Origin: a virus
Reading direction: 5' to 3' (one strand)
Virus record (IMG/VR): IMGVR_UViG_3300013233_000504
Coordinates: 1-34,989 of that record
DNA: 34,989 nt
Numbering within the stretch: the stretch's first letter is position 1; every line of letters starts with the position of its first letter. Shown piece after piece: positions 16,213-31,774 of this stretch. The position numbers and the translations under genes are program-made. Below the pieces are notes generated by a model. The model did no database searches. It was not told the origin of the DNA and was given only the letters and a program-made list of their open reading frames with translations.

Positions 16213-16232
16213 ACCCCATTCGGACGACAATC
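16213..16232 (+). promoter_or_regulatory. Shared 20-bp element, copy A (before putative lysis genes)
   Basis: The copy reads ACCCCATTCGGACGACAATC. It shares 15 of 20 positions with the copies at 23121 and 31755, including an invariant TCGGACGAC. A -10-like TATTAT lies at 16251-16256, about 28 bases from the centre of the element, and no good -35 is present. That spacing and lack of a -35 is what is known for activator-dependent Mor/C promoters of phage Mu. It lies in a 100-base gap and faces the two membrane-protein genes. Confidence 0.7.
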
Positions 16233-16301
16233 AGACCCAAAGTAAGGCAGTATTATTGTTTGATGATATTGCTCTGTTTGGGGCGGGATTGGGGGTATTT
16301 A

Positions 16302-16628
16302 ATGCTGAGTGAATACATGGCCGCAAAAGCCATTCAGGGCGCGGCAGGGGCAATGGGCGCGGCATCCGCGATGGTCTTTCTGTCAACAACGGGGACGCTT
16401 GATTTGATCAGTCGCCTTTTCCTTGGGTTTTATTTGGCCTTAATCGCTACCCCACACACCATGACGATGCTGGGCATGGAGCCGGATACCGACAACATCC
16501 TCTTGATTGGGGGCAGCATCGGCTTTGTTTCGTGGTTCGTTTTGGGTTTGGCTGCCGATTACCTCAACAAGCTGAAAGAACGAGGCGGATTAATGGCGCT
16601 TATCAAGGATTGGAGAGGCGATAAATGA
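16302..16628 (+). CDS. Small membrane protein, possible holin
   Basis: A 108-residue protein. ATG 16302 (GGGGG eight bases upstream) is preferred to the in-frame ATG 16260. Three hydrophobic segments at about 10-28, 35-52 and 66-88 are followed by a charged C-terminus (DYLNKLKERGG ... KDWRGDK). Size, three segments and charged tail match class I holins, which make lesions in the inner membrane at lysis. There is no endolysin next to it, so the call rests on topology. It is preceded by copy A of the shared element, which suggests late expression, and overlaps the next gene as ATGA. Confidence 0.55.
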   Translation: MLSEYMAAKAIQGAAGAMGAASAMVFLSTTGTLDLISRLFLGFYLALIATPHTMTMLGMEPDTDNILLIGGSIGFVSWFVLGLAADYLNKLKERGGLMALIKDWRGDK

Positions 16629-16924
16629 ACGATATTATGCTGGTTTTGTTGCCCCTGATTGTTTTAGGCATTTTTGTTTTAATGTCACAGCACCACAAAA
16701 AGCTGCCCATGACCCAACGTCTGGGGTGGGGGTTGATCTCTCTTGGCCTGCTGGGTGAGTTCGTTTTGCGGATTGATCCGGGATCCGGCCTGCTCTGGAT
16801 GTGTGTGTTGAAAGATTTCGGGGTGATGGTGTTGGTTTCGAGAGTGCTGTTTTTGATGGCCATTGGCCGAACGTGCTACAAGGGCGGCATGAAGCCAACC
16901 CCTTTATCCAATATGAAGAATTAA
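16625..16924 (+). CDS. Small membrane protein, holin/antiholin partner candidate
   Basis: A 99-residue protein with hydrophobic segments at about 4-20, 34-50 and 66-86, starting MNDIMLVLLPLIVLGIFVLM. A His/Lys-rich loop (SQHHKKLPMTQR) separates the first two. It is translated from an ATGA overlap with the previous membrane protein, so the two are made together, as holin/antiholin pairs often are. No other known family is recognised. A strong terminator lies 6 bases after the stop. Confidence 0.5.
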   Translation: MNDIMLVLLPLIVLGIFVLMSQHHKKLPMTQRLGWGLISLGLLGEFVLRIDPGSGLLWMCVLKDFGVMVLVSRVLFLMAIGRTCYKGGMKPTPLSNMKN

Positions 16925-16929
16925 TGGTT

Positions 16930-16973
16930 GGCGGTGGTTCGTTCCAAATTGGAACCAACCATCACGCCTTTTT
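16930..16973 (+). terminator. Rho-independent terminator between membrane genes and repressor
   Basis: The stem TGGTTCGTTCC (16935-16945) pairs with GGAACCAACCA (16951-16961) at ten of eleven positions around an AAATT loop. An outer GGCG/CGCC pair extends it and TTTTT follows at 16969-16973. It stops rightward transcription from the membrane genes. The hairpin overlaps the last codon and stop of the leftward repressor gene, so convergent messages meet here. Confidence 0.85.
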
Positions 16974-17345
16974 ATCCAACTGCATCTCTCGAACGGCCTT
17001 CTCCAGTACGTTTATTCGTTTCTTTTCCTCAGCAACAGCCGAAATCTCTCTCTGTTGATCGGGGGTCAACTCTTCAAATAGAGCGACCATCTTAATCAGC
17101 TTGGGATCAACTCCACCCGATGATTCCTCGCTTTTATAAACTGGATTCTCTCCACTAAGCAGCCACTCCAACCGTAACCCGTGTCGCTTCGCAACGGTTT
17201 CACATACCTCGTATGGGATTTTATCCCTAATCTTCCAAGTGCTAAGCGTTGTCCTACTGTTGCCAATACATTCAGATAGTTGAGTGTTATTTTGCACGTT
17301 AAAAACCACCCTAAGCCTTTTTAAAATCTCTTCTGTCCGACTCAT
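16962..17345 (-). CDS. CI-like repressor (helix-turn-helix, short form)
   Basis: A 127-residue protein on the minus strand. Residues 5-60 (RVVFNVQNNTQLSECIGNSR ... YEVCETVAKRHGLRLEWLLS) match the CI-type helix-turn-helix of phage repressors, including the 'LEWLLxG' end. No S24 self-cleaving peptidase domain follows. Instead there is a short hydrophilic helix (LFEELTPDQQREISAVAEEK) that could dimerise. Without the peptidase, induction would need an antirepressor, and the Rha-like protein at 27420 is one candidate by family. The Shine-Dalgarno GAGGAG lies nine bases before the start. It is divergent from the early genes, the usual lysis/lysogeny switch. Confidence 0.85.
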   Translation of the reverse strand: MSRTEEILKRLRVVFNVQNNTQLSECIGNSRTTLSTWKIRDKIPYEVCETVAKRHGLRLEWLLSGENPVYKSEESSGGVDPKLIKMVALFEELTPDQQREISAVAEEKKRINVLEKAVREMQLDKKA

Positions 17346-17462
17346 ATCGTGAACTCCTCTTGCAATGTATTCGAATCGGAACTATTATTGTTCACAGTCC
17401 GCAACACATTTTAACCAATCGTTTTAAGTGTTTGTTTTCATTGTACAAGAAAGGAGAAAACC
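17346..17462. promoter_or_regulatory. Divergent switch region between repressor and early genes
   Basis: A 117-base intergenic region, clearly AT-richer than its surroundings, that must hold the promoters of both the leftward repressor and the rightward early operon. Inverted copies of GTGAAC/GTTCAC (17349 and 17390), an ATTCGAAT dyad at 17369-17376, and an imperfect CGGAACT/AGTCCG pair (17377-17401) are candidate operators. I could not fix either promoter with confidence. AAGGAG sits before the early ATG 17463. Confidence 0.7.
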
Positions 17463-17666
17463 ATGCCTTTGGCAACAGGTGAAGAACTATATAGAGAAGT
17501 AAAAGCCGGTTTCGTTCAACAAGGAACAACCTTTCACCAATGGTGCCGGTCAGTTAAAAAAAACCCAACCGGTGTGAAAGCCGCTGTTTTCGGCACATGG
17601 AGCGGCATCAAAGGTAAGCAGGTTTTATCCGATGTCGCCACCGCTGCCGGAGTTCTGAAATCGTGA
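17463..17666 (+). CDS. Small early regulator, Cro-position
   Basis: A 67-residue protein with a strong ribosome site (AAGGAG). It begins MPLATGEELYREVKAGFVQQ and includes FHQWCRSVKKNPTGVKAAVFGTW, a helix-turn-helix-like plan found in small phage regulators that bind DNA. It is the first gene rightward from the switch region, in the Cro position. Family identity is not certain, and the role as a second regulator that opposes the repressor is inferred from position. Confidence 0.65.
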   Translation: MPLATGEELYREVKAGFVQQGTTFHQWCRSVKKNPTGVKAAVFGTWSGIKGKQVLSDVATAAGVLKS

Positions 17667-17806
17667 TCCCGATTTACGAACAGATCGAAAGCATCTTTTT
17701 TCCTATCGGCTTTATTCAATCCGCCATCACATCCGCCTATTTCGCTGGCTCCGTGCTGATTACATTGGCACTCGCCGGTTTCCTCTGCTGGAGATTCAAT
17801 AAATGA
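17663..17806 (+). CDS. Tiny membrane protein (47 residues, GTG start)
   Basis: It is read from GTG 17663, which overlaps the previous TGA (GTGA), to TGA 17804. The protein starts VIPIYEQIESIFFPIGF and has one hydrophobic stretch (SAYFAGSVLITLALAGFLCW) followed by RFNK, a single-pass segment with a positive end. Its stop overlaps the ATG of the next gene (ATGA). These couplings on both sides are the main support. Function is unknown. It may be a small membrane early protein such as a superinfection factor, which is speculation. Confidence 0.6.
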   Translation: MIPIYEQIESIFFPIGFIQSAITSAYFAGSVLITLALAGFLCWRFNK

Positions 17807-18006
17807 CAACCAACGTGCTGGTCGCCATGCGCCACAAACAATGCACCAACATCCAAACCCTACTGGAACAGGGCGGCTTGATCCAATCCTCCACCGTCCG
17901 CGTCCACATGCCTGATGGCTCCATCGCCATCGTCGATCCTCTGGGTGAGATCACCCACGACCTCACCTCAGCCCAACTGCGCAACCGTCCGCTAGAGACC
18001 GCGTAA
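17803..18006 (+). CDS. Small early protein, unknown
   Basis: A 67-residue protein starting in an ATGA overlap. A helical first part (MRHKQCTNIQTLLEQGGLIQ) is followed by a strand/hairpin (STVRVHMPDGSIAIVDPLG) and a short tail. No known family is recognised. It precedes the serine recombinase by 11 bases including its ribosome site AAGGAG, and may be an accessory or directionality factor for it. Confidence 0.6.
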   Translation: MTTNVLVAMRHKQCTNIQTLLEQGGLIQSSTVRVHMPDGSIAIVDPLGEITHDLTSAQLRNRPLETA

Positions 18007-18017
18007 GGAGAACCACC

Positions 18018-18740
18018 ATGAAACTGATCGGATATATCAGAGTGAGCACCAAAGAACAGGCCACCGATGGCCACAGCCTGCAAACCCAGCGAGAACAGAT
18101 CCAACGCTACTGTGAAGCGTTCGATCACGAGTTGGTCGGCATCATCGAAGACGCTGGCGTATCAGCCAGCAAACCGTTTGAGAAACGTGCCGGTGGCCAG
18201 AAGGTCATGGACGTTATCACCCAAGGCAACGCCGAAGGTCTGGTGGTTGCGCGCATCGACCGTGCATGGCGCGTGGCACTGGATGGCCTGCTGACCTTCG
18301 CATGGTTCAGCAAACAAGGTGTGTCGTTTCATTCGTGGAATGAGCGCGTCGATACCGGTACCCCAGAAGGCAAGTTCCAGTTGATCACCATGCTGGGCAT
18401 GGCCGAGATGGAACTGGATCGAATCCGCCAACGCACCAAAGATGCCATGCAAGGCTTGAAAGATCGGGGGGCGGTTTACGGCACCATCCCTTTTGGCACT
18501 AAAGCGGTGGACGGGATGCTCTACCGCGACCCGAAAACATGGAAGGTTCGCCAAACCATCATCCGCGCCCGTAACCGCAAGAAGCCGATCCCCTATCGTA
18601 AGCTGGCTGCGCAACTCTCCAACCGTGTGGCGGCTCCCAGTGGTGGCAAAACGTGGCACGTCTCAACCCTGCAAGGGATCATCAAAAACCACACCGATGT
18701 GGCCAAGCTGCCGTTGATGGGAGAGCGTCATGTCCACTAA
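18018..18740 (+). CDS. Serine recombinase (resolvase/invertase family)
   Basis: A 240-residue protein. The N-terminus GYIRVSTKEQATDGHSLQTQ carries the nucleophilic Ser10 in the resolvase motif, followed by a YCEAF segment, VVARIDRAWR (conserved Arg residues) and a MAEMELDRIRQRTKDAM long helix. A Lys/Arg-rich region with an HTH-like part (PYRKLAAQLSNRVAAPSG) follows. It lacks the large C-terminal domains of phage integrases of the phiC31 type and resembles resolvases or small IS607-like enzymes in size. It could resolve dimers, invert a segment or integrate. It overlaps the downstream tyrosine recombinase by 11 bases, so the two are produced together. Confidence 0.88.
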   Translation: MKLIGYIRVSTKEQATDGHSLQTQREQIQRYCEAFDHELVGIIEDAGVSASKPFEKRAGGQKVMDVITQGNAEGLVVARIDRAWRVALDGLLTFAWFSKQGVSFHSWNERVDTGTPEGKFQLITMLGMAEMELDRIRQRTKDAMQGLKDRGAVYGTIPFGTKAVDGMLYRDPKTWKVRQTIIRARNRKKPIPYRKLAAQLSNRVAAPSGGKTWHVSTLQGIIKNHTDVAKLPLMGERHVH

Positions 18741-19674
18741 ATTCATGCCAAGAAACGTGCGACCCGCTGGCGATCTGATCAACCTCTGCAACCGCTTTCT
18801 CGATCACATCAAGAACGTGCTTTCCGTCAACACCGTCAAGGCCTATCAGATTGATCTGGAACAGTTGGTGGGCTTCTGCCGTGGGGGTGGCATAGAGAGC
18901 ATCCAACAGATCAACGCCATCATCATAGACAACTGGCTCGATGCGATGATGAAAGGCGAGGGCGTTAAACCCCGAACCGCTGCCCGAAAACTGGAAGCCG
19001 CCAAGAGTTTGCTGCGTTGGGCGTTCCAGCGCGAACTGATCAACAGCAATCCTGGCGACCGCTGCCACATCTCTTATGACGAAGCGCCCGTGATTGCCCC
19101 GCCGTCTGAGGTGATGAATCGGGTCATCGACACCATCAGCACCGAATCAACCTTAGGTAAGCGCGACAGAGCCATGCTGCTGCTGATGAAGGATGGCGCG
19201 ATGCGAATCAGTGCGGTGGCATCACTCGACCTCTACAACCCCGACCAACCACCGATCCACAGCATCCACCCGAATGGCTTGATCTACTACCCATGCAAAG
19301 GCCGCACTGAAAACACCATCGTCCAACGTGGCACGTTGCAGGCGGTGCAAGCGTGGCTTGATGTCCGTCATGAACTGGTGAAGCGCAACAGCCCCACGGC
19401 GTTGTTTCTCAGCACCCGAGGTTCACGCATGGGGCGTGGAGCGATCCATTCCAGAGTCAAACACGCTGGCAAAGAGGCCGGTGTTCCAAGCCTGCACGCG
19501 CATCTGCTGCGCCATCGCCGCATCGGGGATCTGATCGAGAAGACGGGGGATTTCCGTTTGGGGCAGGCGTTAGCAGGCCACAAGAGGGCAACAACGACGA
19601 TCAGTGTCTACGGCCACAGTGAGCGGATTAAGTTGCTGAAACGGATTCAGGGTGAGGGTGATGAGAACAAATAA
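18730..19674 (+). CDS. Tyrosine recombinase 1 (phage integrase family)
   Basis: A 314-residue protein. The N-terminal SAM-like core-binding domain (residues 10-105, e.g. FLDHIKNVLSVNTVKAYQID) is followed by a catalytic domain with R159 (AMRISAVASL), H258 and R261 (HLLRH), H284 (GHKR) and nucleophile Y294 (SVYGH). The full Arg-His-Arg-His-Tyr set is in place and the length is typical. It follows the serine recombinase directly with an overlap. Either it or the second tyrosine recombinase at 21789 could integrate the prophage, or one may resolve multimers of the circular genome. Confidence 0.9.
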   Translation: MSTKFMPRNVRPAGDLINLCNRFLDHIKNVLSVNTVKAYQIDLEQLVGFCRGGGIESIQQINAIIIDNWLDAMMKGEGVKPRTAARKLEAAKSLLRWAFQRELINSNPGDRCHISYDEAPVIAPPSEVMNRVIDTISTESTLGKRDRAMLLLMKDGAMRISAVASLDLYNPDQPPIHSIHPNGLIYYPCKGRTENTIVQRGTLQAVQAWLDVRHELVKRNSPTALFLSTRGSRMGRGAIHSRVKHAGKEAGVPSLHAHLLRHRRIGDLIEKTGDFRLGQALAGHKRATTTISVYGHSERIKLLKRIQGEGDENK

Positions 19675-19894
19675 CGAGGATCAAGACCGACTGCCCGATG
19701 GCAGTTGGGACTTTGCCAAAATTGATCAACAGATGAGCCGGTACAGCTACCAGCTCAAACAGAAACTCAAGAGAGAGGGGCTATGCCAAAAAGCAAACCA
19801 AGACTCTGCAAACGCTGTGGAACGGCGCTCAAGTACCGCAAGAGAAGCTGTGATGTCTGTGGAGCCACTTACGCTACAAAACGCTTTGTTATGA
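19661..19894 (+). CDS. Small hypothetical protein overlapping the next gene
   Basis: A 77-residue reading frame from ATG 19661, or from GTG 19652 with three more residues. The first 43 residues (MRTNNEDQDRLPDGSWDFAK ... LKREGL) look like a normal protein. The rest overlaps the zinc-ribbon gene at 19783 for 112 bases in another frame and looks less natural. The true gene may have the real stop as shown or be expressed with a shift into 19783. Such a shift would be -1, which I regard as possible but unsupported. Low-complexity or function clues are absent. Confidence 0.45.
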   Translation: MRTNNEDQDRLPDGSWDFAKIDQQMSRYSYQLKQKLKREGLCQKANQDSANAVERRSSTAREAVMSVEPLTLQNALL

Positions 19895-20079
19895 CCCCAC
19901 GGCATATTTCAGCGGTCAAGATGCAGTCCAATCGCAAGGGCTTGATCTTCCGCAATGACGACAGCTTGTACCGCGACAAGTTGGCGATGATGGGGGTGGC
20001 ATCCTGCAAAGAGCTTAACCAGAGACAGTTTAGACAGTTTATGTCTGATCTGGATCACCTGCCAAACGTAGCACGATAG
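19783..20079 (+). CDS. Zinc-ribbon protein, unknown
   Basis: A 98-residue protein with GAGAGAGGGG just before ATG 19783. The N-terminal part has two Cys pairs in the C-x2-C ... C-x2-C form (LCKRCGTALKYRKRSCDVCG), a treble-clef or ribbon that should bind zinc and nucleic acid. The remainder is basic and helical (LYRDKLAMMGVASCKELNQR). This type is common in phage early regions and may be a small replication or transcription accessory. A terminator follows immediately after the stop. Confidence 0.7.
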   Translation: MPKSKPRLCKRCGTALKYRKRSCDVCGATYATKRFVMTPRHISAVKMQSNRKGLIFRNDDSLYRDKLAMMGVASCKELNQRQFRQFMSDLDHLPNVAR

Positions 20080-20080
20080 G

Positions 20081-20100
20081 CGGCCTGCTCAGGCCGTTTT
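20081..20100 (+). terminator. Rho-independent terminator after the recombinase operon
   Basis: CGGCCT-GCTC-AGGCCG (20081-20096) is a perfect six-base stem with a tetraloop, followed by TTTT. It begins one base after the TAG of the zinc-ribbon gene. It should close the early transcription unit that starts at 17463. Confidence 0.85.
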
Positions 20101-20135
20101 ACTCAGCAAATCAAATATGTATAGAGGTTTTTATT

Positions 20136-20429
20136 ATGACGTTACCAACTGCGCTGTGTGGGTTAAATCGCCACATTCTTGGTTTAAACGAATCCAGACA
20201 ATTGAACGATAAGGGTAGGTTGATAAGTTTTTATTCAATTGGCTTTTGGATGATGGGTGCTTTTTTTTCGATGTTAGTGAGTTTTAGAGGGTTAGTTCGA
20301 TTGTTGGGAAATAATGTATATTATGTTAAATATAACGTAACCCCTTTAAATACAGCGTCAAACCCACCCAATCAAACAATAAGAGCTGTTATCAGCAACA
20401 AGCCACACGCATCTGGAGAACGCTCATGA
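20136..20429 (+). CDS. Possible small membrane protein (weak ORF)
   Basis: A 97-residue frame. In favour: an AGAGG ribosome site before ATG 20136, an ATGA overlap with the replication gene at 20426, and a hydrophobic segment (ISFYSIGFWMMGAFFSMLVS). Against: its second half crosses a very AT-rich stretch with dyad repeats that looks regulatory, and the C-terminus is of low quality. If it is not real, the interval 20101-20425 is a leader/regulatory region for the replication gene. I lean slightly to real for the first half only. Confidence 0.35.
   Translation: MTLPTALCGLNRHILGLNESRQLNDKGRLISFYSIGFWMMGAFFSMLVSFRGLVRLLGNNVYYVKYNVTPLNTASNPPNQTIRAVISNKPHASGERS
20311..20336. promoter_or_regulatory. 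AT-rich dyad pair ahead of the replication gene
   Basis: ATAATGTATATTAT (20311-20324, five-base arms) is directly followed by GTTAAATATAAC (20325-20336, four-base arms). The surrounding 60 bases are far AT-richer than the flanking genes. It lies about 90 bases before the replication gene. It may be an operator/promoter or part of an origin unwinding element. No matching repeated iterons were seen, so the exact role is open. Confidence 0.45.
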
Positions 20430-21313
20430 GCGCCCAAGCGATGGCATGGGCTTGGGATCAAAACCTAAAGTATCTGCCTAAATTAATCCTGTTGGCATTA
20501 GCCGAAAACTCAACATCAGAAGGGGTCTGCCAACCATCCATCGAGACTATTTCGGCTTGGTGCGGGGCATCAAGAACAGCAGTGATTCGCAACATAAACC
20601 AACTCGTAGAGGATAAATTTTTAACTAAAACAATACGACGAATTGGGACGACAAATGCCACTAATATTTACACGCTACAACTAAAGAAAGCTGCGGATAA
20701 ACACAATAACAAAACGTCAATAGGGGGTAGCGGAAAAGGACTAGGGGGGGTAGCGGAAAAGGATCAGGGGGGTGGCGGAAAGGGACTAAGGGGGGGTGGC
20801 GGAGACGCACCCATTGTATTTAGTACAAGACGTAAAAAGACTACTACAGACAGTACGTCCCAAGTTCCAACCACTGATGCTTCGATTTCAAAAGGCGTAA
20901 GTAGTCGTAATTTTGAATATGTATTTCCAAAAGATCTAAGCCCGAAAGATCAGTTGGACATCGGTGAGATTCTAAAAGCAGTTAATACGGAAACGGGGCA
21001 ACAAATTCTTGATGTCCTTGCGGTGAATTTCAAGGACGGCAAGGTTCGTAACGCCACTGCTCTTACCCGTGGTCTCGTTGCTCGATGTGAGAAGGGTGAT
21101 TTTAATCCTGCGCCTGGTGAAGCGGTTGCCAAAGCTCGATCCAACCCTGCAAACGACATGACGGTATCCAAGGTGATCCACAGCACAACGGTTCCCGATA
21201 GGACGAACGATGAGATTTGGGCAGCTCAGGCGAAAGTCATGCGGATGACGCTCGATGAGTTCAAAGCCAAATACGTTCCCACTGCGGACTCTGGGGATGC
21301 CTCATGTCATTGA
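20426..21313 (+). CDS. Replication initiation protein (DnaD/O-like N-terminal winged helix)
   Basis: A 295-residue protein. Residues 1-85 form a winged-helix pattern common to phage replication proteins of the helix-turn-helix 36/DnaD/lambda O type: LKYLPKLILLALAENSTSEG, CQPSIETISAWCGAS, VIRNINQLVEDKFLTKTIRR. A polar Gly/Lys linker around 95-130 has repeats of the form GGGSGKGLGG, encoded by repeated ggggg/ggaaa tracts. The C-terminal part (EYVFPKDLSPKDQLDIGEIL) is helical and may bind helicase or DNA. It probably recognises the origin and loads the replisome. Context: early region, just downstream of AT-rich dyads. Confidence 0.75.
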   Translation: MSAQAMAWAWDQNLKYLPKLILLALAENSTSEGVCQPSIETISAWCGASRTAVIRNINQLVEDKFLTKTIRRIGTTNATNIYTLQLKKAADKHNNKTSIGGSGKGLGGVAEKDQGGGGKGLRGGGGDAPIVFSTRRKKTTTDSTSQVPTTDASISKGVSSRNFEYVFPKDLSPKDQLDIGEILKAVNTETGQQILDVLAVNFKDGKVRNATALTRGLVARCEKGDFNPAPGEAVAKARSNPANDMTVSKVIHSTTVPDRTNDEIWAAQAKVMRMTLDEFKAKYVPTADSGDASCH

Positions 21314-21792
21314 TTTCACTAAACTCACAGGGAAACGGTCACGGTGAAGTTAGGCGGGTTACTAGTCCATTAACTTCCCATTGGCTTGTGGCATATCCCA
21401 ACTCGTTGTGGTCGGTAGGCGGCCTAGATAATATATTAGCAAACCTGCATATAGTGAAACCGGCCGCCCTTGGCGTGGTTGGTTGGTGGTTATCTGTTTG
21501 TAATCAGTGGCTTACGGTGTGCCTCCGGCGTTCGTCTCCGGTCATAAACCCCACCCCCCCTGCAAAGCTCAGCAATAAATACACTGGTTGGTTGGTAGGT
21601 AGCGCCTCTAAAAATGGAACACCCCGCATGGGGCGAACCAACACAGCAATCACCACCGCCAAAAATAGCGCTGGAGCAAATCTGGCAGCCACCACCAAAC
21701 GAACGCCACATAACCAATACCATCGCAAGGCCAAAGCATCTAAAACGCTTAGATGCGGTTTATGGGCTTCTTTCGTTAGGGGGAGCAGATGA
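21304..21792 (+). CDS. ORF of unclear status between replication gene and integrase 2
   Basis: A 162-residue frame that starts at ATG 21304, ten bases before the replication gene stop, and ends in an ATGA overlap with the recombinase at 21789. Both joints look like translational coupling. However, the protein has an odd composition (Ser/Thr/Asn/Lys-rich second half, NAXXXA-like runs), no domain is recognised, and minus-strand frames are also open here. The region includes GGCGGCC/GGCCGCC inverted arms at 21418-21468 and a CCCC-GCAT-GGGG hairpin at 21622-21633. If it does not code, the 470-base stretch may hold the attachment site of the adjacent integrase. Confidence 0.45.
   Translation: MSLISLNSQGNGHGEVRRVTSPLTSHWLVAYPNSLWSVGGLDNILANLHIVKPAALGVVGWWLSVCNQWLTVCLRRSSPVINPTPPAKLSNKYTGWLVGSASKNGTPRMGRTNTAITTAKNSAGANLAATTKRTPHNQYHRKAKASKTLRCGLWASFVRGSR
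21736..21756. promoter_or_regulatory. Perfect inverted repeat before integrase 2
   Basis: GCATCTAA (21736-21743) and TTAGATGC (21749-21756) surround the loop AACGC. The eight-base perfect arms lie 33 bases upstream of the recombinase ATG. It may be a protein-binding site, a weak hairpin in the leader, or a core/arm site used by the recombinase. No U-tract follows, so it is not a classic terminator. Confidence 0.5.
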
Positions 21793-22826
21793 TCGCCAAC
21801 AACCCCTTGCTGCCGATCCTGATGGCCGTGCCGCTGCTGGGCAACGCCCTTGCCATCGCCTTGCGAGAATTTAAAGGCGACCCAGAGGCCGACCTGCTCA
21901 CCGAATGGATTGCTTACCACCGCATCTCCCGTGGTCTCAGCGGGTCAGCGCTCGCAACCTACATCCGCAAAGTGCGATTTATGAAACATTGGGCAACGAG
22001 TCAAGGCAAGCGCCTGCAAGACTTAACGCCTAAATGCGTCGATAACTACCACAAGTTCCTCTATCTTGAGAAGAACCACAGCAGTCACGCCCGCAGCCAG
22101 TCCATGAGTTCCGCGCGCAGCTTCTACGCTTGGGCAGAGCAGTTTTACAACTGGGATAACCCCACTCAATTTTTGGTTGGCCCCAAGATCCCCAAGCTGT
22201 TGCCTCGCAAATACAGCGACAAAGAACTCAAACGCCTGTTCCAAACCTTCGACCACACCGACCCCTTTGGCCTACGGGACTACACCTACCTGCTAACCAT
22301 GTGGGCAACGGGAGCCAGAGCGATGGAGCTGGCCGATATGCGACTGGATCAGATCCAGCTTGAAGAGCGAGTTGGCAGCCTGCGGTTTTTTGGCAAAGGC
22401 TCCAAGGAGCGCAAGGTCGGCTTTGAAGGCGCTGTGGTCACCAACCTAAAAAAATGGTTGGCGGTCAAAGAGGCGTTGAGTTGGGGAAAAAATGAGTGGC
22501 TTTTCCCCAGTATGCAAGGCACCCCGCTGCGCCACTGGACAGCAGCCAAGCGTCTGGAGATCCACGCCAAGAAGGCGAACATCAAGAAATGGAAGCTGCA
22601 CTGGATGCGCAGCACCTTCGCCACCAACCTCTACGACCTCGGCGAAGACATCAACACCATCAAGCTGATCATGGGGCATGAAGACCTGCGCACCACCGAG
22701 CGTTACATCGCCATTTCAGAGCGCCGACTCAGGACGCGAATGCCCACATCCCGCATCAAAGAGATCATCGGCCAAGCGGACGAAGAAACCCCGCTCTGGG
22801 TGAGACAAAAACTGGGAGTTTTGTAG
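21789..22826 (+). CDS. Tyrosine recombinase 2 (phage integrase family)
   Basis: A 345-residue protein with a complete catalytic set: R177 (GARAMEL), K203 (GKGSKERK), H271 and R274 (HWMR), H297 (MGHED) and Y306 (ERYIA). This is XerC/D-like in spacing. The N-terminal core-binding domain starts around residue 30 (EADLLTEWIAYHRISRGLSG). Residues 1-25 are unusually hydrophobic (NNPLLPILMAVPLLGNALAI), so the true start might be further in. The annotated ATG does have AGGGGGAG upstream and an ATGA overlap. It may be the integrase or a resolvase acting on the circular genome. Confidence 0.88.
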   Translation: MIANNPLLPILMAVPLLGNALAIALREFKGDPEADLLTEWIAYHRISRGLSGSALATYIRKVRFMKHWATSQGKRLQDLTPKCVDNYHKFLYLEKNHSSHARSQSMSSARSFYAWAEQFYNWDNPTQFLVGPKIPKLLPRKYSDKELKRLFQTFDHTDPFGLRDYTYLLTMWATGARAMELADMRLDQIQLEERVGSLRFFGKGSKERKVGFEGAVVTNLKKWLAVKEALSWGKNEWLFPSMQGTPLRHWTAAKRLEIHAKKANIKKWKLHWMRSTFATNLYDLGEDINTIKLIMGHEDLRTTERYIAISERRLRTRMPTSRIKEIIGQADEETPLWVRQKLGVL

Positions 22827-22828
22827 GT

Positions 22829-23170
22829 ATGAAAGACGATATTCAACAAAAACAGCAGCTTATTGACTGCTTTCACAGCGACTTTTCACCCATTGTGGAG
22901 CTGGTAAAGCGCATCGGTGTGGCCAATGCGGAGGCCGTGTTCGATATTTTCGGCGGCAGCAAGCCGCATCTGCCGACCAGCAGTGCGTTTTGGTCGCGCA
23001 TGGAGCGTGAAATCCGCCACGAAGAGATCCGAGCGCAGGCTGGCAAGGTCACGGTTCGCCAATTGGGGCGTGAATACGGCCTCTCCCTCAAGCAGGTTTA
23101 CTGCATCTTGAAAAAAAATTACCCCAATCGGACGACGATTTCGGTTCCAATTGAGAAGATAACCCCATGA
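22829..23170 (+). CDS. Mor/C-like late transcription activator
   Basis: A 113-residue protein. The C-terminal 50 residues (VRQLGREYGLSLKQVYCILK) form the helix-turn-helix seen in the Mor/C family of Mu. The middle (PHLPTSSAFWSRMEREIRHE) fits the segment preceding the helix pair in that family. Mor-family proteins bind dyads near -40 as dimers and recruit RNA polymerase to promoters with poor -35 boxes. It is placed just before the terminase genes and overlaps the next ATG by four bases. It is the natural candidate to read the 20-bp element found three times in this genome. One copy lies within its own 3' end. Confidence 0.75.
   Translation: MKDDIQQKQQLIDCFHSDFSPIVELVKRIGVANAEAVFDIFGGSKPHLPTSSAFWSRMEREIRHEEIRAQAGKVTVRQLGREYGLSLKQVYCILKKNYPNRTTISVPIEKITP
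23121..23140 (+). promoter_or_regulatory. Shared 20-bp element, copy B (before terminase genes)
   Basis: ACCCCAATCGGACGACGATT, with perfect five-base arms AATCG/CGATT around GACGA. It is inside the 3' end of the Mor-like gene and 26 bases before the small terminase ATG. The C-terminal residues NRTTISV are encoded across it. A possible -10 (GATAAC, 23158-23163) would start the message at about the ATG, so a leaderless or downstream start may apply. Confidence 0.65.
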
Positions 23171-23877
23171 CGCGCAAAAAGACCAAGAGAAAACTATCCG
23201 AGGCGGAGCTGCAACAGCGCCGCAACGCAGCCAAGAAGTCCACCGGCCCCAAAACGCTGGAAGGCAAAGCGCGGTCATCGCGCAACAATTGGAAGCACGG
23301 CCTGTACAGCAAAGCCCACAACATGATCAAAGAAAACTGGTCGGTGGGTGCGTTTGGCAAGTCGTGCAAGACCACCTGTCAGTATCACCCAGAAAACCCC
23401 GCCAGCGCCGTCAGTGGTGCCTGTCATCTGGTCATGGAGGGTGTGACCAGCGCAGGCGGTGACTGCCTCGACAAAACCGTTTACCTCACCGCCTTTGATG
23501 GCCTGCTGAAAACCATGCAGACAGGCCGTGCTGAGAACATGCACGAGATCTTGGCCGCCGAAGCTGCGGGGGTTTTTGAGTTATTGCACCAACTGCGCAG
23601 CTCCATTGCTGCCGATGGCCCCGTGATTCAGCAGCCGATCATCAACAAAGAGGGTGATGTGGTCGGGCACAAACCGATCATCAACCCCGTCATCGTGCCG
23701 TACACCAAAATGTTCAGTGAGCTGGGGCTGAATCTGAATGAAATGCTCTCCACTCCCAAGGCCATTGTCGGCACTGAGCAGCAGGAGGACGCGCAGCAGG
23801 CGATGGCCACCATGTTGGGTGGCGCATTGGCGCGGGTGGGTAAGCGCAAAGGCATCATCATCGAGGGCAATTCGTGA
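23167..23877 (+). CDS. Small terminase subunit (probable)
   Basis: A 236-residue protein. The N-terminus is very basic (MTRKKTKRKLSEAELQQRRN) and carries KKSTGPKTLEGKARSSRNNW ending in KHGLY. The KHG(L/A)Y-type motif is typical of phage small terminases. A Cys-containing part (CKTTCQYHPENP) follows, and the C-terminal region (INPVIVPYTKMFSELGLNLN) ends with the helical pattern of small terminases with P27-like C-terminal segments. It would recognise the packaging site and guide the large subunit. It overlaps the large terminase by four bases (the GTG at 23874 is the start used below). Confidence 0.65.
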   Translation: MTRKKTKRKLSEAELQQRRNAAKKSTGPKTLEGKARSSRNNWKHGLYSKAHNMIKENWSVGAFGKSCKTTCQYHPENPASAVSGACHLVMEGVTSAGGDCLDKTVYLTAFDGLLKTMQTGRAENMHEILAAEAAGVFELLHQLRSSIAADGPVIQQPIINKEGDVVGHKPIINPVIVPYTKMFSELGLNLNEMLSTPKAIVGTEQQEDAQQAMATMLGGALARVGKRKGIIIEGNS

Positions 23878-25730
23878 CCAGCGTGGCACAGCGCGCGATG
23901 GGACACGCTGGCGAAGTGGGCGCGTACCAGATCGAAGGCTTCGAGGCGTGGCTGGAAGAGCAGCAGATGGCGTGGCAACCGCTGTCTCGTGGTGAGTACG
24001 GCATCACGCTGGAGCAAGCGCAGATGGCCTACATCAGCCAAGACCCGCTGCTCTGGTGTCAAGCGTTTCTCAACGAGCCAGACAACGACGAGCCGTACAC
24101 CTTTTGGGACTACCAGAAACCCAGCGTCGAGAGTTGGCAGCAGGACGTGATCCACCAAGACGGTGCCGAAGTGGGCAAGACCCGTGAGATCACCGCGCTT
24201 ATTTTATGGGGCCAGATCACCGCCTTTGGTGGCTCGATTTTGCGCCCCTCCATTCTCGTTGCCGCCCCTCAACAGACCCATCTCGATGAGATCATCATGG
24301 ACATGGAAGGCCATCTTGGCATCACCGAAGACGGTGGCCAGCACAAGCCGTTCATCCACCACTTTTGGCTCAAGCCCAAGCGCACCCCGCACTACATGGC
24401 GCGCTTCATGACCCCCAACCCCGAGAACCCCAACCGTCCCAGAGTGGGGCGGGTCTACTTTCGCCCCGCAGGCCACGATGGTGAGGCGTTCCGTGGGGTA
24501 CACGTCAACGCACTGGGGTTGTTTGACGAAGCCGCCAAGATCAAAAACAAAACCATCTGGTCGGAATTTTTCCGCTCCCTAAAACCCGGCTGCAAACACC
24601 GCATTTATTCCGTTCCAGACGGCGACAACGCCAGCGAGTTCTACCGGATGTGCCAAAAAGCCATCCCCAATCTGCCTACCGATCAGCCCGGCCAACGCTT
24701 GTTCCATTGGGCGAAGACCCTTATGCCCGAACCCTTCTGGAGCGACGACCGCAAGCAGCACTTTGTCCGCCTCTTTGGTGGCGAAGACAGCCCAGGTTAT
24801 CAACGCAACGTGCTGGGTCTCAATGGCCAGCAAGAGAACCCCGTATGGCCTTGGTCAACGCTGGAACCCAACTTCCAAGACATTCCAGAATACCGCTGCA
24901 TCAAACTGCTGTTTGACAAAGCCCAGCACCAGATTCACCTACTTGCCAGCAAGATCAACCTCATCAGCACCGAAGGCAAGCGAGTCGGTGAGGAAGCGTT
25001 TCTGGACGACCGCTACGACAGTCAGGACATTCACCTCTCCAGCAACGGCGATCAGCAACGGCGGCGACTCTACCGCCTGCTGCGCGAGTTCATCACCCCG
25101 CCACCCAGTGGCCTGTATTGGTTCGGCGGTGATTTGGGTTACGCCAAAGACCCGACCGAGCTGTTTGTCTTTCACGAGTTGGGCAGTGAGCTGCGCTTGG
25201 TGGTGCGTCTGCACCTCAAGGGGATGGACTACGACCAACAGGCCGATCTGATCTTCTGCCTTGATCGGCTGTTTGGCTTCAGTGGCGCGTGGGGTTTGGA
25301 TTTTGGCAGCGCCGGAACGATGGTGGTGCAGTTGCTCCAGAACCGCGAAGAGTATCAGGAGGGCGATTATGAAAACCGTCTCACCGGCTTCCTGTTTGCC
25401 CAAGCGATGGAGGCGACAGACGAAGAGGGCAATGTGGTTGAGGAAGAGGATCGAAAGACCGGCGACCGCAAGGCGTTGCGCTTGCCAGCCAAGCAGTTGG
25501 CCACCGATTTGATGGGGCGCAGGTTCCAGCGCAGCGGCTATGCCCTGCCGATGGACAACGATCTGGTGCAGCACTTGACCAACCACACCGCCCGAGAGGG
25601 GGCGCGCCACCTGATCTACGACAAGAGCGACGATCACACCATTGATGCGATGCGTGTGGCCATTTTACGCAAGGTTTTTAACGAAGATGCGGCGGTGGAT
25701 CTCTTCTCTGCGTCTGTTTTTTCGAGGTAA
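23874..25730 (+). CDS. Large terminase subunit (packaging ATPase/nuclease)
   Basis: A 618-residue packaging motor. It starts at GTG 23874, within the small-subunit stop. Walker A is GAEVGKT at 97-103 and Walker B is ALGLFDEA at 213-220 (D218, E219). In the C-terminal RNase H-like nuclease the acidic residues are D420 (GGDLGYAKDP), D476 (GLDFGSAG) and D591 (DDHTIDAMR). The layout matches large terminases of Mu gp28-like and related phages. Length is normal (usually 450-620). It translocates DNA into the prohead and cuts it. A headful mechanism would explain the circularly permuted assembly, but the type of end is not decided by sequence. Confidence 0.9.
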   Translation: MTSVAQRAMGHAGEVGAYQIEGFEAWLEEQQMAWQPLSRGEYGITLEQAQMAYISQDPLLWCQAFLNEPDNDEPYTFWDYQKPSVESWQQDVIHQDGAEVGKTREITALILWGQITAFGGSILRPSILVAAPQQTHLDEIIMDMEGHLGITEDGGQHKPFIHHFWLKPKRTPHYMARFMTPNPENPNRPRVGRVYFRPAGHDGEAFRGVHVNALGLFDEAAKIKNKTIWSEFFRSLKPGCKHRIYSVPDGDNASEFYRMCQKAIPNLPTDQPGQRLFHWAKTLMPEPFWSDDRKQHFVRLFGGEDSPGYQRNVLGLNGQQENPVWPWSTLEPNFQDIPEYRCIKLLFDKAQHQIHLLASKINLISTEGKRVGEEAFLDDRYDSQDIHLSSNGDQQRRRLYRLLREFITPPPSGLYWFGGDLGYAKDPTELFVFHELGSELRLVVRLHLKGMDYDQQADLIFCLDRLFGFSGAWGLDFGSAGTMVVQLLQNREEYQEGDYENRLTGFLFAQAMEATDEEGNVVEEEDRKTGDRKALRLPAKQLATDLMGRRFQRSGYALPMDNDLVQHLTNHTAREGARHLIYDKSDDHTIDAMRVAILRKVFNEDAAVDLFSASVFSR

Positions 25731-25737
25731 TTGAGTT

Positions 25738-26405: not shown

Positions 26406-26426
26406 TTAACGATTGAGGTGTTTGTG

Positions 26427-26768: not shown

Positions 26769-26795
26769 CGGGTGGGGTTAAATCACAGGTTTCTG

Positions 26796-26815: not shown

Positions 26816-26876
26816 GGGAATTGAGTTTTAAACAGGGGATTTCCCCCCTTTAGAAAAGACCAAGGAAATTAATCCA

Positions 26877-27179: not shown

Positions 27180-27423
27180 AAAACCAACCCTAGATCCGTC
27201 TGCCGTTCAGGCTTTGCTGGTCAAACTCACCGAAAACAACACCTTTATCGCCAACAGTCTTGCTGTTGTTGTCAGCGCCGATCACGGCGAACTCCCATCC
27301 CGCATTGGCGAAGGCTTCAGCAACGACCTTGCCCAACTGGCGCTTGATCGAGCGGACACTCAATACGAGATTATTGATCAGCTTGGCGATTTGGTTGTTT
27401 CAGCTTTTGAGGGGGCGTTATGA
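27172..27423 (+). CDS. Small phage protein, unknown
   Basis: An 83-residue protein from ATG 27172 with AGAGG upstream, preferred to the in-frame ATG 27136. It is mostly helical (LDPSAVQALLVKLTENNTFI ... LAQLALDRADTQYEIIDQLG). It starts the Rha cassette and ends in an ATGA overlap with the Rha gene. No function is assigned. It may be a partner that modulates Rha, by position only. Confidence 0.6.
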   Translation: MSKKPTLDPSAVQALLVKLTENNTFIANSLAVVVSADHGELPSRIGEGFSNDLAQLALDRADTQYEIIDQLGDLVVSAFEGAL

Positions 27424-28217
27424 GCACTGCAATGATCCCCAGCATCGTCAGCATGGACAGCCGTGAGTTGGCTAAATTCTCTGGCAAGCGTCACCACAAT
27501 GTTTTGCGTGACATCGAGAAGATGATTAAAGCGCTGCCCGAACTAATTGAAATAGAGACCAACTCAAATGTGAGTTCGTCTCCGATTGTTGAATCCATCT
27601 ACATTGGGAATAACAACGAGCCGCGCAAAACGTACATTCTCGACAAGCACGCCGTCATTACCTTGGTTACAGGTTGGTCGGCTCCCTTGCGTTACCGGAT
27701 CTCTAAGCGCCTTGAAGAGTTGGAGTTGAGTCACAACAGCCGTCAACCGGCGTCTCCCGTCTCCGACATGCCGATCATCAGCCCCGCGATGGCCGTTGAC
27801 ATGCAGTTTGCCAGCATGGCCAGCGCCATTTTGCGCCTGAGCGACACCAGTAAGCTGCGGATGTTGACCACCGTGGCCGAAAATCACGGCGCAAGCACCA
27901 ACCTGCTGCCCAGCTACACCGATGAAAAACTCACCCGCGCACTGGGCGACCTGCTCAAAGATCACGGCTCCCAACTCAGCGCCCGTGCCGCCAATCCGAT
28001 CCTCATGGCACTGGGGTATCTGGAAGAACGCGAACGCCGAGGCGCGCATAGCAGCACCAAACGCTTTAAATCCATCACCGAAGCCGGATTGACGTTTGGT
28101 AAAAACGAAACAAGCCCCCAAAATCCCAATCAAACCCAACCGCGTTACTACGTCGAACGCTTTCCCGCCTTGCTGGATCAGATCAACGCTTGGTTTTCAG
28201 AAGGAGCAAGAGCATGA
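27420..28217 (+). CDS. Rha-family phage regulatory protein
   Basis: A 265-residue protein. Residues 6-105 match the Rha domain: a MDSRELAKFSGKRHHNVLRD beginning, a polar loop with repeated Ser, then IYIGNNNEPRKTYILDKHAV and the GW(S)APLRYRISKRLEELE end. The C-terminal half is a second domain (LRMLTTVAENHGASTNLLPS, LSARAANPILMALGYLEERE) of the kind found in phage antirepressors. In lambdoid phages Rha affects development in host mutants and superinfection. Here a repressor without a peptidase may need this type of protein for induction, which is inference. It overlaps its neighbours as ATGA on both sides. Confidence 0.85.
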   Translation: MSTAMIPSIVSMDSRELAKFSGKRHHNVLRDIEKMIKALPELIEIETNSNVSSSPIVESIYIGNNNEPRKTYILDKHAVITLVTGWSAPLRYRISKRLEELELSHNSRQPASPVSDMPIISPAMAVDMQFASMASAILRLSDTSKLRMLTTVAENHGASTNLLPSYTDEKLTRALGDLLKDHGSQLSARAANPILMALGYLEERERRGAHSSTKRFKSITEAGLTFGKNETSPQNPNQTQPRYYVERFPALLDQINAWFSEGARA

Positions 28218-28900
28218 AAGGGCTGACCCTGATTCACAGCGAACCCAACGTGATCAAAGTCCCTTTCGAGGGGCGGGAACACTACCTGACCGTGGCCGCC
28301 GACACCGTCTACGTTGCCGCAGCGCCGTTGTCCGATGAAATCAACATGTCCGTGGATTGGTTGCAGGCCGCATTTGGCTCTGAATCCAGCATGACGCTGG
28401 AGATTTCGGGCAGCGAAGCCATCCCCCACAGCTGGGTGATGCTGGCCGCCCTGCAACACCATCTGATCAACGCCGAACACAACGAAGTTCACCTTGGCGA
28501 CAGCCTCACCGATGAAGAAAAACGCCTCTGGGAACCGCTTCTCAGTCACTACAACCGCGCAGCGCACTATTTTTTCACAGACCCAACGACAGAAGAGCCG
28601 ATTGAGATCCCCTTTGAACCCAAGGTTATGCCAATCGAACAAGAGACCGCGCCCACCTTGGCGAACCTGAGCGCCGACCACGCCGTTCAAGAGGTCGGTC
28701 TTGAGATTGACCCCATCACCGAAGCCATCGAAACACTGCAAGACCTGCTGATGAACGGCATGAGCCTGACGGTTGATGCCGAAGCCGTGACGCTGGAGAT
28801 CGGCAAAGAGCGGTTTGAGATGTTCAAATCCGAGCAGACGGAAGCGTTTATGCAGTCGGCCAGTTGGCTGGCGACCTGCCGTATGGAGAACTCAGTATGA
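28214..28900 (+). CDS. Hypothetical protein following Rha
   Basis: A 228-residue protein from ATG 28214 (SD AAGGAG). Its N-terminal half begins LTLIHSEPNVIKVPFEGREH and is beta-rich. The middle (ALQHHLINAEHNEVHLGDSL) is helical and acidic. The C-terminal part (EAIETLQDLLMNGMSLTVDA) is followed by a helix. I do not recognise a known domain. The ATGA overlap with both neighbours indicates an operon from 27172 to the portal gene, so it may be an accessory (head or moron) protein. Confidence 0.6.
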   Translation: MKGLTLIHSEPNVIKVPFEGREHYLTVAADTVYVAAAPLSDEINMSVDWLQAAFGSESSMTLEISGSEAIPHSWVMLAALQHHLINAEHNEVHLGDSLTDEEKRLWEPLLSHYNRAAHYFFTDPTTEEPIEIPFEPKVMPIEQETAPTLANLSADHAVQEVGLEIDPITEAIETLQDLLMNGMSLTVDAEAVTLEIGKERFEMFKSEQTEAFMQSASWLATCRMENSV

Positions 28901-29196
28901 AAATTGCAAAAGAGCAGATCAAAACCCTCTCCTTTGTCGATGGCATCACCGATCTGCACGACCCTCTGCTGACCCGATTCAATGGCGCAGACCACTACTG
29001 GGTTATGAACCACTGGATTTCAAAAGCCGAAGCCGCCAAAAAAGCGGGTATATCAGAAACCGCCATGCGCACCCGAGTGGCGTGTGGGCTGCGTGGCTAT
29101 CAGTTGATTGCTGGCTCCAATGATCCGCTCTACACCGATCCTCAGCCGGTAATGACTGAGCTATTTCCACAACTGCAAGGCTGGGGCTTTAGATGA
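28897..29196 (+). CDS. Small protein with HTH-like segment before the portal gene
   Basis: A 99-residue protein from ATG 28897. The middle part WISKAEAAKKAGISETAMRT looks like the first helices of a helix-turn-helix, with a Gly turn and following RVACGL. The region before it (LSFVDGITDLHDPLLTRFNG) and the C-terminus are not typical of a repressor. It may bind DNA or be a small head-associated factor. It overlaps the portal gene by four bases (ATGA). Confidence 0.55.
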   Translation: MKIAKEQIKTLSFVDGITDLHDPLLTRFNGADHYWVMNHWISKAEAAKKAGISETAMRTRVACGLRGYQLIAGSNDPLYTDPQPVMTELFPQLQGWGFR

Positions 29197-31271
29197 ACTT
29201 AAACCCGATGAACTGGCTAACCAAAGCCGCGCCGAGTACCGGCGTATTGAACAACCACGCGCCACCGCAAGGCGAGTGGACAGAGACATTTGATAACTGG
29301 GTGGCCAGAGAGGTCAATCCAAACCTCTACGAATCCCTGCGCGAAGCGGTGCCGGTGATTGATGCCGCCATCAATCGGCTGACGACACTGGATGGCGTGA
29401 TGCAGATCGAAGTGGAGCGCGATGCCATGCGCGCCGAGCTGGAAGATTGGATGGAGACCGTGCAAGTGGGCGACATGCAGCAGGGCTTCCAAGCCTTTTA
29501 CGCCGGATGCAGCAACGAGCTGTACGAACAAGGTCATGCTCTGGGGGAGTTTATCTACAGCGCAGGCCGTAAGGACGTGGTGCGGCTCAATGTCGCCGAC
29601 AGCAAAGGCACGCTCTTCAAACGCAAAGACGGCAAGCTGGAGGTCTGGTACCGCAACCCCCGCAAGCTGTTCAAGAGCGCCAACGGCAGCAGTAGTGACA
29701 ACATTGACGCGGTGCTGAACAACCGCTACCAAGCCAGCGTGACCAGCTCCACCCTCATCGAGCGAGGTTACCGCAAGCTGGATCGAGCGCGGATGATCTA
29801 CGCCGTGCATCACCCAGAGGGTGACAGCCCCTACGGCACGAGCCTGATTCGTTCGCTGGAGTTTGTCAGCAAGATTTTACTCACCATCGACAACAGCCTG
29901 CTGCTGGTCTGGCAGCGGTTCGGTGATCCATCGTTCAATATGACCTACAAATCCAGCCGCAACCTCACCGATGCGCAACTCAAAGCCCGTCAAAACGACC
30001 TTCACACCAACCTAAGCCGTGCGCTGGCGATCAAAAAGAAGGGCGGCAGCGCCGACTTTGTTAACGCCCTCTCCAAGGGTGATGACCTGATCTTGTCGAT
30101 CATCGGTGAAAGCGGTCAGATGATGGATGTGGAGACTCCGGCCAAACACGTCATGGAGCAGATTGTCGCCAAAACCGGCTTGGCACCGTGGATCTTAGGT
30201 TACGTCTGGGGGACTGCGGAACGCTTGGCGGACATGCAGAGCAAGTTGATGCTGCAAGAGAGCCGCACCCGTTTTGCCATGCGTAAGTCGGGGCTGGTGA
30301 AGCCCATCGAAGCGATGCTGCGCGCCCGTGGCAAGACGTGGAGCCGTGGAGATTGGAATCTGGTGCAATCCCTGCCGAACATGCAGGACATGATGGCCAC
30401 CGCCCAAGCCAAGTTCCTTGAAGCACAGACCGAGTTGATGTTGGGCAACGCCAACAGCACCCCGCCCACCGAGATCAACAGCCAAAAGCAGCGCCGCAGA
30501 CAGGCCAAAGCCGCAGCCCCAGCACCCCGAACCAAGGCCGAAGGTGAGGCTGTGGCCGAGCAGAGCGCCAGCATGGCCGAACGTGATCAGCAGACCATTG
30601 ACGCGCTGCAAAGCCGCTGGCAAGCGGATTACAGCAAGATGATGAAGTTGATCGGTTTGGGTGGTGTGGCCAAAGCCGAGGGCGATCTGTTCGTTTACAA
30701 CAACCAATGGTTGCCCGAGCTGAAAGCTTTGGAATCAGCCCTGATTTCCGAGCTGGGAGCCGAAGGTGGCGCACTGGCAGCGCCTCTTCATGAGGCATGG
30801 ATAGAGGGTGCTACCGGTGCCGCAGCCGAGTTGAGCCGTGAGGCCATTATGGGCGCGGTCTCCGAGGCCGCAGTGGTGGCCATGAACGCCGCCGCACTGG
30901 ATCACGTCAAAGACGTGGTGGTACGCAGCCTTTCGGACGACATCCTGCCGGTGATGGCCAGCGGCATCTATGACGGACTGAATCCAACCGTGGTGGCGCG
31001 CCAACTCAAAGGCCGTTTTGATGCGCACGATTACGATTGGCAGCGCATGGTGCAGTCCGAGATGACCGCAGCCAGCGCCACCGGCAAGCTGGATCAGTAC
31101 GCCGCTCAAGAGGTGGGCGAATACGAGTACATCAACGCAGGGGACGGCGATGTGAGCACCATCTGCATCGACTTGGCCAACGCCAGCCCCTACACGGTCG
31201 GAGAAGGGCCGTTACCCGTTCGAGATTCACACCCAGGCTGCCGCTGTTCCGTGCGCGCAGTGGCTCCATAA
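29193..31271 (+). CDS. Portal protein (Mu gp29/DUF935-like) fused to a MuF-like domain
   Basis: A 692-residue protein. Residues 1-410 correspond to a Mu gp29-type portal: an N-terminal region ending in EVWYRNPRKLFKS, a clip/stem region (YGTSLIRSLEFVSKILLTID) and a long C-terminal helix (AKTGLAPWILGYVWGTAERL). Residues 430-530 form a basic linker. Residues about 560-692 show a MuF/gp30 type pattern (VVARQLKGRFDAHDYDWQRM ... SEMTAASATGKLDQY ... VRDSHPGCRCSVRAV), where HPxCRC is a hallmark of the MuF C-terminus. In Mu these are separate genes 29 and 30, so this is a natural fusion. The portal forms the ring through which DNA enters; MuF proteins are minor head components. Confidence 0.85.
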   Translation: MNLNPMNWLTKAAPSTGVLNNHAPPQGEWTETFDNWVAREVNPNLYESLREAVPVIDAAINRLTTLDGVMQIEVERDAMRAELEDWMETVQVGDMQQGFQAFYAGCSNELYEQGHALGEFIYSAGRKDVVRLNVADSKGTLFKRKDGKLEVWYRNPRKLFKSANGSSSDNIDAVLNNRYQASVTSSTLIERGYRKLDRARMIYAVHHPEGDSPYGTSLIRSLEFVSKILLTIDNSLLLVWQRFGDPSFNMTYKSSRNLTDAQLKARQNDLHTNLSRALAIKKKGGSADFVNALSKGDDLILSIIGESGQMMDVETPAKHVMEQIVAKTGLAPWILGYVWGTAERLADMQSKLMLQESRTRFAMRKSGLVKPIEAMLRARGKTWSRGDWNLVQSLPNMQDMMATAQAKFLEAQTELMLGNANSTPPTEINSQKQRRRQAKAAAPAPRTKAEGEAVAEQSASMAERDQQTIDALQSRWQADYSKMMKLIGLGGVAKAEGDLFVYNNQWLPELKALESALISELGAEGGALAAPLHEAWIEGATGAAAELSREAIMGAVSEAAVVAMNAAALDHVKDVVVRSLSDDILPVMASGIYDGLNPTVVARQLKGRFDAHDYDWQRMVQSEMTAASATGKLDQYAAQEVGEYEYINAGDGDVSTICIDLANASPYTVGEGPLPVRDSHPGCRCSVRAVAP

Positions 31272-31293
31272 CCGATTTTAAGAGAGAACCGTC

Positions 31294-31746
31294 ATGTCAA
31301 GAGGCATCAACAAAGTGATTTTAGTGGGCAACTTGGGAGCCGATCCCGATGTGCGCCACACCAACAACGGCAGCACGGTCTGCAACCTGCGCTTAGCCAC
31401 CACGCGCAGTTGGAAAGACAAGCAGACCGGTCAAACGGTGGAGGAAACCGAGTGGTCTATCGTGGTGATCTTCGGCAGGCTGGCGGAAATCGCCGCGCAG
31501 TACCTAAAAAAAGGCGCACAGATCTACATTGAAGGCCGCCTGCGAACCCGCAAATGGCAGGATCAGTCGGGCAATGACCGCTACACCACCGAAGTGGTGG
31601 CCAATGACATGCAGATGTTGGGCGGCAAACCTGCCGAAGCCAGTGGCAGTGATTACGCCGCAGCTCGACAAAAGGGAGGTTCGCCTCCAGCCCCACAAAA
31701 TCACCCGCAAAACAGCGACATTGATGAAGAGGATATCCCGTTTTAA
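31294..31746 (+). CDS. ssb: Single-stranded DNA-binding protein
   Basis: A 150-residue protein. The OB-fold occupies residues 3-108 ([56 protein letters not shown]). A Gly/Pro/Gln linker and the acidic tip DEEDIPF at the end complete a canonical bacterial-type SSB that coats single strands and recruits replication and repair proteins through the tip. It lies between portal and capsid protease, an unusual place for a replication gene. The gap before it is 22 bases with a possible ribosome site (AGAGA), so it may be co-expressed with the portal operon. Confidence 0.95.
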
Positions 31747-31754
31747 ACAAAGTT

Positions 31755-31774
31755 ACCTGAATCGGACGACGATT
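31755..31774 (+). promoter_or_regulatory. Shared 20-bp element, copy C (before capsid/tail genes)
   Basis: ACCTGAATCGGACGACGATT, with a six-base dyad GAATCG/CGATTC (31759-31764 and 31770-31775) around GACGA. It is intergenic, directly after the SSB stop, and about 100 bases before the first capsid-module gene. A TACAGT at 31789-31794 could be a -10 and a long leader with a hairpin follows. This is the best dyad of the three copies. Confidence 0.7.

Follow-up and report, generated by a model that had tools for sequence, protein, structure and literature searches.

The 34,989-nucleotide stretch of viral DNA analysed here (IMG/VR record IMGVR_UViG_3300013233_000504; hereafter the window) carries three copies of a short element that, judged from its conservation, is a real on-switch ahead of the packaging and capsid genes and, in most relatives, of the lysis genes. 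The element is probably the activator site of a repeated late promoter of class II type, which lacks a −35 hexamer and would be read by a Mor-family protein whose gene, mor, adjoins the terminase genes. The proposal of the initial annotation that a late regulon fires from three places is thus supported, with sites ahead of the packaging, capsid and presumed lysis units and with Mor as their most likely reader.

Copies of the element and their recurrence in related phages

The initial annotation had described three 20-mers, at 16213–16232, 23121–23140 and 31755–31774, identical at 15 of 20 positions around the invariant TCGGACGAC and all oriented along the + strand, and this description holds. 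The AATCG/CGATT dyad that it also noted is present in the 23121 and 31755 copies, but not in the 16213 copy (ATTCG/CAATC) or in most relatives, and was rejected as the recognition dyad because it is not conserved. The conserved site is instead the 19-bp GTGAC-CG-WTCGGACGAC, which occupies about −49 to −31 relative to the predicted transcription start and reaches further upstream than the 20-mer, with GTGAC at −49. The elements of the three promoters, and the gene of their presumed reader, are placed as follows:

23110–23117, + strand: A/T-rich, UP-like stretch above the packaging site
23118–23136, + strand: 19-bp activator site of the packaging promoter, ATTACCCCAATCGGACGAC, within the 3′-terminal part of the Mor-like gene
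23155–23160, + strand: predicted −10 GAAGAT of the packaging promoter, at the family-wide peak 27 nt below TCGG
31744–31751, + strand: A/T-rich, UP-like stretch above the capsid site
31752–31770, + strand: 19-bp activator site of the capsid promoter, GTTACCTGAATCGGACGAC
31789–31794, + strand: predicted −10 TACAGT of the capsid promoter
16202–16209, + strand: A/T-rich, UP-like stretch above the third site
16210–16228, + strand: 19-bp site of the third (presumed lysis) promoter, TTAACCCCATTCGGACGAC, the weakest case of the three
16251–16256, + strand: possible −10 of the third promoter (TATTAT), located 31 nt below TCGG
22829–23170, + strand: Mor-family activator gene, presumed reader of the sites (PF08765; the family profile matches Mu Mor and C)

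The window holds four occurrences of the invariant TCGGACGAC, where 0.15 would be expected, and none of 100 shuffles reached four; the fourth copy, at 30933–30941, lies inside the portal gene and lacks the remainder of the site. When both strands were scanned with a 19-bp matrix trained on other genomes only, the three copies ranked first, second and third (22.2, 19.5 and 14.6 bits), followed by the 30933 copy at 11.9 bits.

Relatives were gathered through the terminase. The large terminase of the window, whose homolog in MK557849 is annotated as terminase large subunit, retrieved six viral contigs at 55–67% identity, and an alignment search extended this to 71 viral and 17 genome loci. The only terminase near 48% identity in 50,697 phage records is that of Microcystis phage MACPNOA1 (48% to that of the window); the other match reaches 23%. 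Searches of viral contigs and phages with the Mor-like protein alone gave no relatives, because it is too diverged, and an exact-pattern scan of the viral contigs for the element found nothing because the pattern was too strict. In all, 14 relatives with the element were obtained, and 40 sites were compiled from 15 genomes.

In near relatives, spanning 40% to 68% G+C, the same core stands before the small-terminase-like gene (terS), between portal and capsid, and further downstream, with two to four copies per genome that are nearly always on the late-gene strand. With the matrix trained leave-one-genome-out, the top matches in most of these relatives are the + strand sites at the same places, i.e., ahead of terS, at the boundary of portal and capsid, and mostly in front of lysis genes, as the initial annotation had anticipated; the relatives that keep the Mor-like gene while losing the element, which it named as contrary evidence, were looked for, and the element was found at the same places on the late strand. 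The core of G006 ends in GAT, and there two minus-strand matches score above the true sites; the core of some relatives varies to ACGGACGAC, CCGGACGAC or GCGGACGAC. Matrix ranking and recurrence bear out the earlier judgement that a chance origin is unlikely; a chance repeat, for which no point is left in favour, is refuted by the recurrence at the same places and is as improbable as any reading considered here.

The genes that follow the sites in the window, and the recombinase gene beside mor, are:

23167–23877, + strand: small-terminase-like gene, first of the packaging unit (38–53% conserved before the large terminase; role by position)
23874–25730, + strand: large terminase (annotated homolog in MK557849)
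29193–31271, + strand: portal/minor-head gene of the packaging unit (TIGR01641 over cut-off; position)
31878–34593, + strand: start of the capsid unit, with genes at 31878, 32187 (head protease/capsid-like), 33256 and 33637 (presumed major capsid protein, assigned by position)
16263–16924, + strand: two small hydrophobic proteins, presumed lysis genes (hydropathy)
21789–22826, + strand: tyrosine recombinase (PF00589), located beside mor in near relatives

The claim that each copy heads a late block stands for terS and for the capsid unit, and the capsid-side sites of relatives precede homologs of the 31878 gene, of the head protein at 32187 and of the presumed capsid protein. For the copy at 16213, the lysis identity of what follows comes from hydrophobic segments and position, and family models gave no match to the two genes after 16210. 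Most full genomes have one element ahead of the lysis cassette: the third site precedes an endolysin in G007 (phrog_7), a small open reading frame (ORF) and then an endolysin in G010 and G011 (phrog_435), and more distantly an endolysin in G013 (phrog_669), while G001 has a weak holin match (phrog_785) and G001 and G006 share a phrog_3108 protein. The third place is not always lysis, as the site in G009 precedes the tape-measure gene.

In distant relatives (terminase identity about 37–42%), the same two places, one upstream of terS and the other 3.8–6.1 kb beyond the start of the terminase, are occupied by a repeated element of another sequence, which an extended −10 (TGnTA) typically follows. 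Their cores include AAAGTGACA..TCTGCCAG (L060, L065), GTGATCTGCCAGATCAC (L062, L104), TTGCCAGAACGTGGG (L092) and others; L060/L065 are a CTGCCAG lineage, as distinct from a CGGACGAC lineage. Dyads such as GTGCCAC..GTGGCAC (L041, L046) are found in relatives of the Xanthomonadales branch. The recognition sequence drifts across the family and the promoter geometry stays.

Promoter geometry and the presumed activator

A generic sigma-70 −10 matrix was slid downstream of the element, with distances counted from the T of TCGG. Over the first 21 sites the score peaks exactly 27 nt from TCGG (0 of 2000 shuffles), and the peak was repeated in 19 independent sites that had no part in the first test (again 0/2000). 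The terS sites alone gave 0/2000, and the capsid-side sites alone p = 0.0005. Promoter coordinates assume that +1 lies 12 nt from the start of the −10 (hexamer at −12), i.e., 39 nt from TCGG; on this scale, the 40 sites contain 65% A+T at −57 to −50 compared with 47% further upstream. No TTGACA-type −35 and no sigma-70 −35/−10 pair was called at the sites, and a TTGAC in G001 was rejected as an ordinary −35 for its far too long distance to the −10. The fixed spacing, the missing −35 and the upstream A/T block support an assignment of the sites as Mor-type late promoters, in which the UP-like stretch (−57 to −50) would be followed by the 19-bp site (−49 to −31), 18 bp and the −10 hexamer.

The same geometry bears on two other readings. 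The copies might be recombination sites of the adjacent tyrosine recombinase, whose gene neighbours mor in near relatives, and direct repeats are indeed recombinable. Such sites would leave the fixed −10 spacing and the A/T block unexplained, however, and recombination between direct copies would delete essential genes. Moreover, the elements in G001, G006 and G010 stay before terS where mor, together in G001 and G006 with the recombinase beside it, lies at a distance of one to several kb; since the sites follow gene starts, the recombination reading was rejected, and we consider it very improbable. Action in RNA, as a terminator or antitermination signal, is just as hard to credit: the 31759–31775 copy can fold a short stem that has been called terminator-like, but the stem is present neither in the 16213 copy nor in most relatives, and the terminator reading was rejected on this ground. 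Because the −10 lies downstream of the element, the element would also be outside any transcript starting there.

The identification of the protein at 22829 as Mor-like is confirmed by PF08765 (29 bits against a cut-off of 24.9), which scores up to 48.8 bits in relatives. A profile of the relatives matches the solved structures of Mu Mor (1rr7, 7e-9) and Mu C (9l0x, 2e-8), including the C-terminal helix-turn-helix (HTH), and an AlphaFold model (pLDDT 88) has Mu C and Mor as its top Foldseek matches, with E-values that are not significant; a literature search for the cryo-EM work behind 9l0x/9l0y gave nothing directly relevant among the papers available. Nearly every relative for which enough sequence is available has a gene of the Mor family upstream of its terminase genes. 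Where the Mor protein reaches 88 bits or more against a near-clade model, the locus always has CGGACGA sites before terS, and loci of similar terminase identity with weaker Mor scores are mostly without them.

The Mor-family protein is the most likely binder of the sites, a link built on linkage, family knowledge and co-inheritance. The same character of the evidence leaves some room for late promoters read by another phage protein, or for operators that silence the late genes in the lysogen, since the window encodes other HTH proteins (e.g., at 20426, and the CI-like repressor at 16962). We regard this as unlikely, because the regulator adjoining the terminase block is Mor across the whole family, and a promoter that lacks a −35 needs an activator, the role that Mor-family proteins play in Mu.

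Several observations weigh against the preferred reading of the element as a Mor-dependent promoter site. Taken by themselves, the eight lysis sites have a −10 signal that is not significant (p = 0.52), and in the window's own lysis copy the best −10 is 4 bp out of register, with a poor in-register hexamer, GCAGTA. The site is weakly symmetric and centred near −40 (or −35.5), rather than forming a 16-bp dyad at −43.5. A terminator-like hairpin occupies the window's own capsid leader (31801–31870). Two loci with paired promoters, L092 and L079, lack a Pfam Mor, on contigs that are incomplete. Finally, the Mor and terminase trees broadly agree; incongruent trees as a proof of the link had to be rejected, and site and Mor are therefore co-inherited, which is no independent proof that the protein acts at the site.

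In the mechanism that we favour, the Mor-family protein would be expressed early, bind the sites and recruit host RNA polymerase, so that the packaging, capsid/tail and probably lysis units start together, with one copy of the element located in the 3′ end of mor itself.

Predicted message starts in the packaging, capsid and presumed lysis units

The predicted +1 of the packaging promoter (~23167) coincides with the A that opens the terS start codon. In 12 of 12 genomes, the window included, this ATG lies between predicted +1 and +4 (offset 39–42 from TCGG), and these starts mostly have no Shine-Dalgarno sequence; in G011 the first ORF is at offset 39, and its identity as terS is unproven. The spacing is not forced by gene overlap, because it is kept where mor is far away (G001, G006, G010). 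At capsid-side and other sites, the first ATG-initiated ORF is usually at offset 49–132, often with a good ribosome site, such as GGAGGTG in G007; in the window, the predicted +1 (~31801) is followed by a leader with AGGAG ahead of the ATG at 31878. The terS mRNA is thus probably leaderless by its predicted start, and the capsid mRNAs probably carry leaders and ribosome sites. For the Xanthomonadales group, the −10 signal has its maximum 12 nt ahead of the terS start codon (0/1000 shuffles). No −10 signal came from the distant terS starts (p = 0.19), probably owing to unreliable start-codon assignment; the class A group was likewise blurred in this test by that automatic assignment.

Some lysis genes share the terS spacing (38 in G001, 39 in G007, 40 in G011), as does the window's 16263 gene if TATTAT at 16251 is the −10, which would place +1 at its ATG. 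This presumed lysis gene could start at the leaderless ATG 16263 or at an internal ATG near 16302 behind GGGGG, and it is possibly a dual-start membrane protein with long and short forms.

From these start positions, a broader scheme can be drawn for the lineage, which we hold tentatively and rate slightly below even: late genes would run from repeated Mor-dependent promoters, with leaderless terminase (and often lysis) mRNAs transcribed from the AUG itself, and with capsid transcription starting above a leader that has a ribosome site. One activator would set the timing, and the mode of translation would set stoichiometry, keeping terminase low and capsid high.

About ten relatives have a strong intrinsic terminator 20–75 nt above the capsid promoter and none at the terS sites; packaging and capsid units therefore look separately controlled. 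The terminator-bearing capsid-side sites are those of G001, G002, G006–G011, L010 and L029, and the window is without one. The hairpin in the window's capsid leader (GGCACGG..CCGTGCTG, then CTTTTT, directly before AGGAG) is not significant against shuffles and might be an attenuator. An SSB gene (31294–31746) sits between portal and capsid in the window; G001 and G006 have it upstream of the terminase block, a relocation of the gene.

The ends of the window are identical over 239 bases (1–239 and 34751–34989), which would fit a 34,750-base genome that is circular or circularly permuted. Its Pfam-scanned proteins, a subset of the ORFs, include tyrosine recombinases, a resolvase and the CI-like repressor, and no DDE transposase was found among them. 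MACPNOA1 (L027, KY697807) has 68% G+C, and its terminase groups with Xanthomonadales-branch loci, which is odd for a Microcystis host; the ends of its record have 81 bases in common.

Comparison with known phage regulatory systems

The family is wide and almost uncharacterized, and the present result would give it a concrete late-promoter code. It would also carry Mor/C-type late control beyond Mu-type phages, and the paired natural sites could serve to define the specificity of Mor. A terminase mRNA that proved to be leaderless would offer a natural setting in which to study the purpose of leaderless translation; a literature search on leaderless terminase mRNA gave nothing directly relevant among the papers available. 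The lambda cI message from PRM is a leaderless phage mRNA. The predicted terminase mRNA resembles it in starting at the AUG, but the lambda case is a repressor message, and ours is a terminase message predicted across a family.

In the Mu promoter Pm, a Mor dimer takes the place of the −35 upstream of a recognizable −10, and bases of an UP element lie at −57 to −52 (PMC4390567). The promoters described here share with Pm the Mor-family gene, an activator site that replaces the −35 and a recognizable −10 (PMC4390567, PMC4287176), and their A/T block at −57 to −50 matches the proximal UP element of Pm. They differ in the site itself, which in Pm is a 16-bp dyad with 5-bp arms at −43.5 and here a weakly symmetric 19-bp site around −40. 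Furthermore, Mu has a single Mor promoter that makes a second activator, C, whereas here several late promoters are apparently served directly. In this respect they are closer to the Mu late promoters lys, I, P and mom, where several late promoters are likewise read by one Mor/C-family protein, C (PMC4461284); those promoters have other sequences, and the present ones head packaging, capsid and lysis units in phages with tyrosine recombinases.

The late activators Alt of TP901-1 and Ltr of phi13 likewise have their target in the 3′ end of their own gene, before the terminase genes (PMC13123087). They act, however, through several direct repeats at one promoter, whereas the system proposed here would use a single site per promoter, several promoters and a Mor-family protein.

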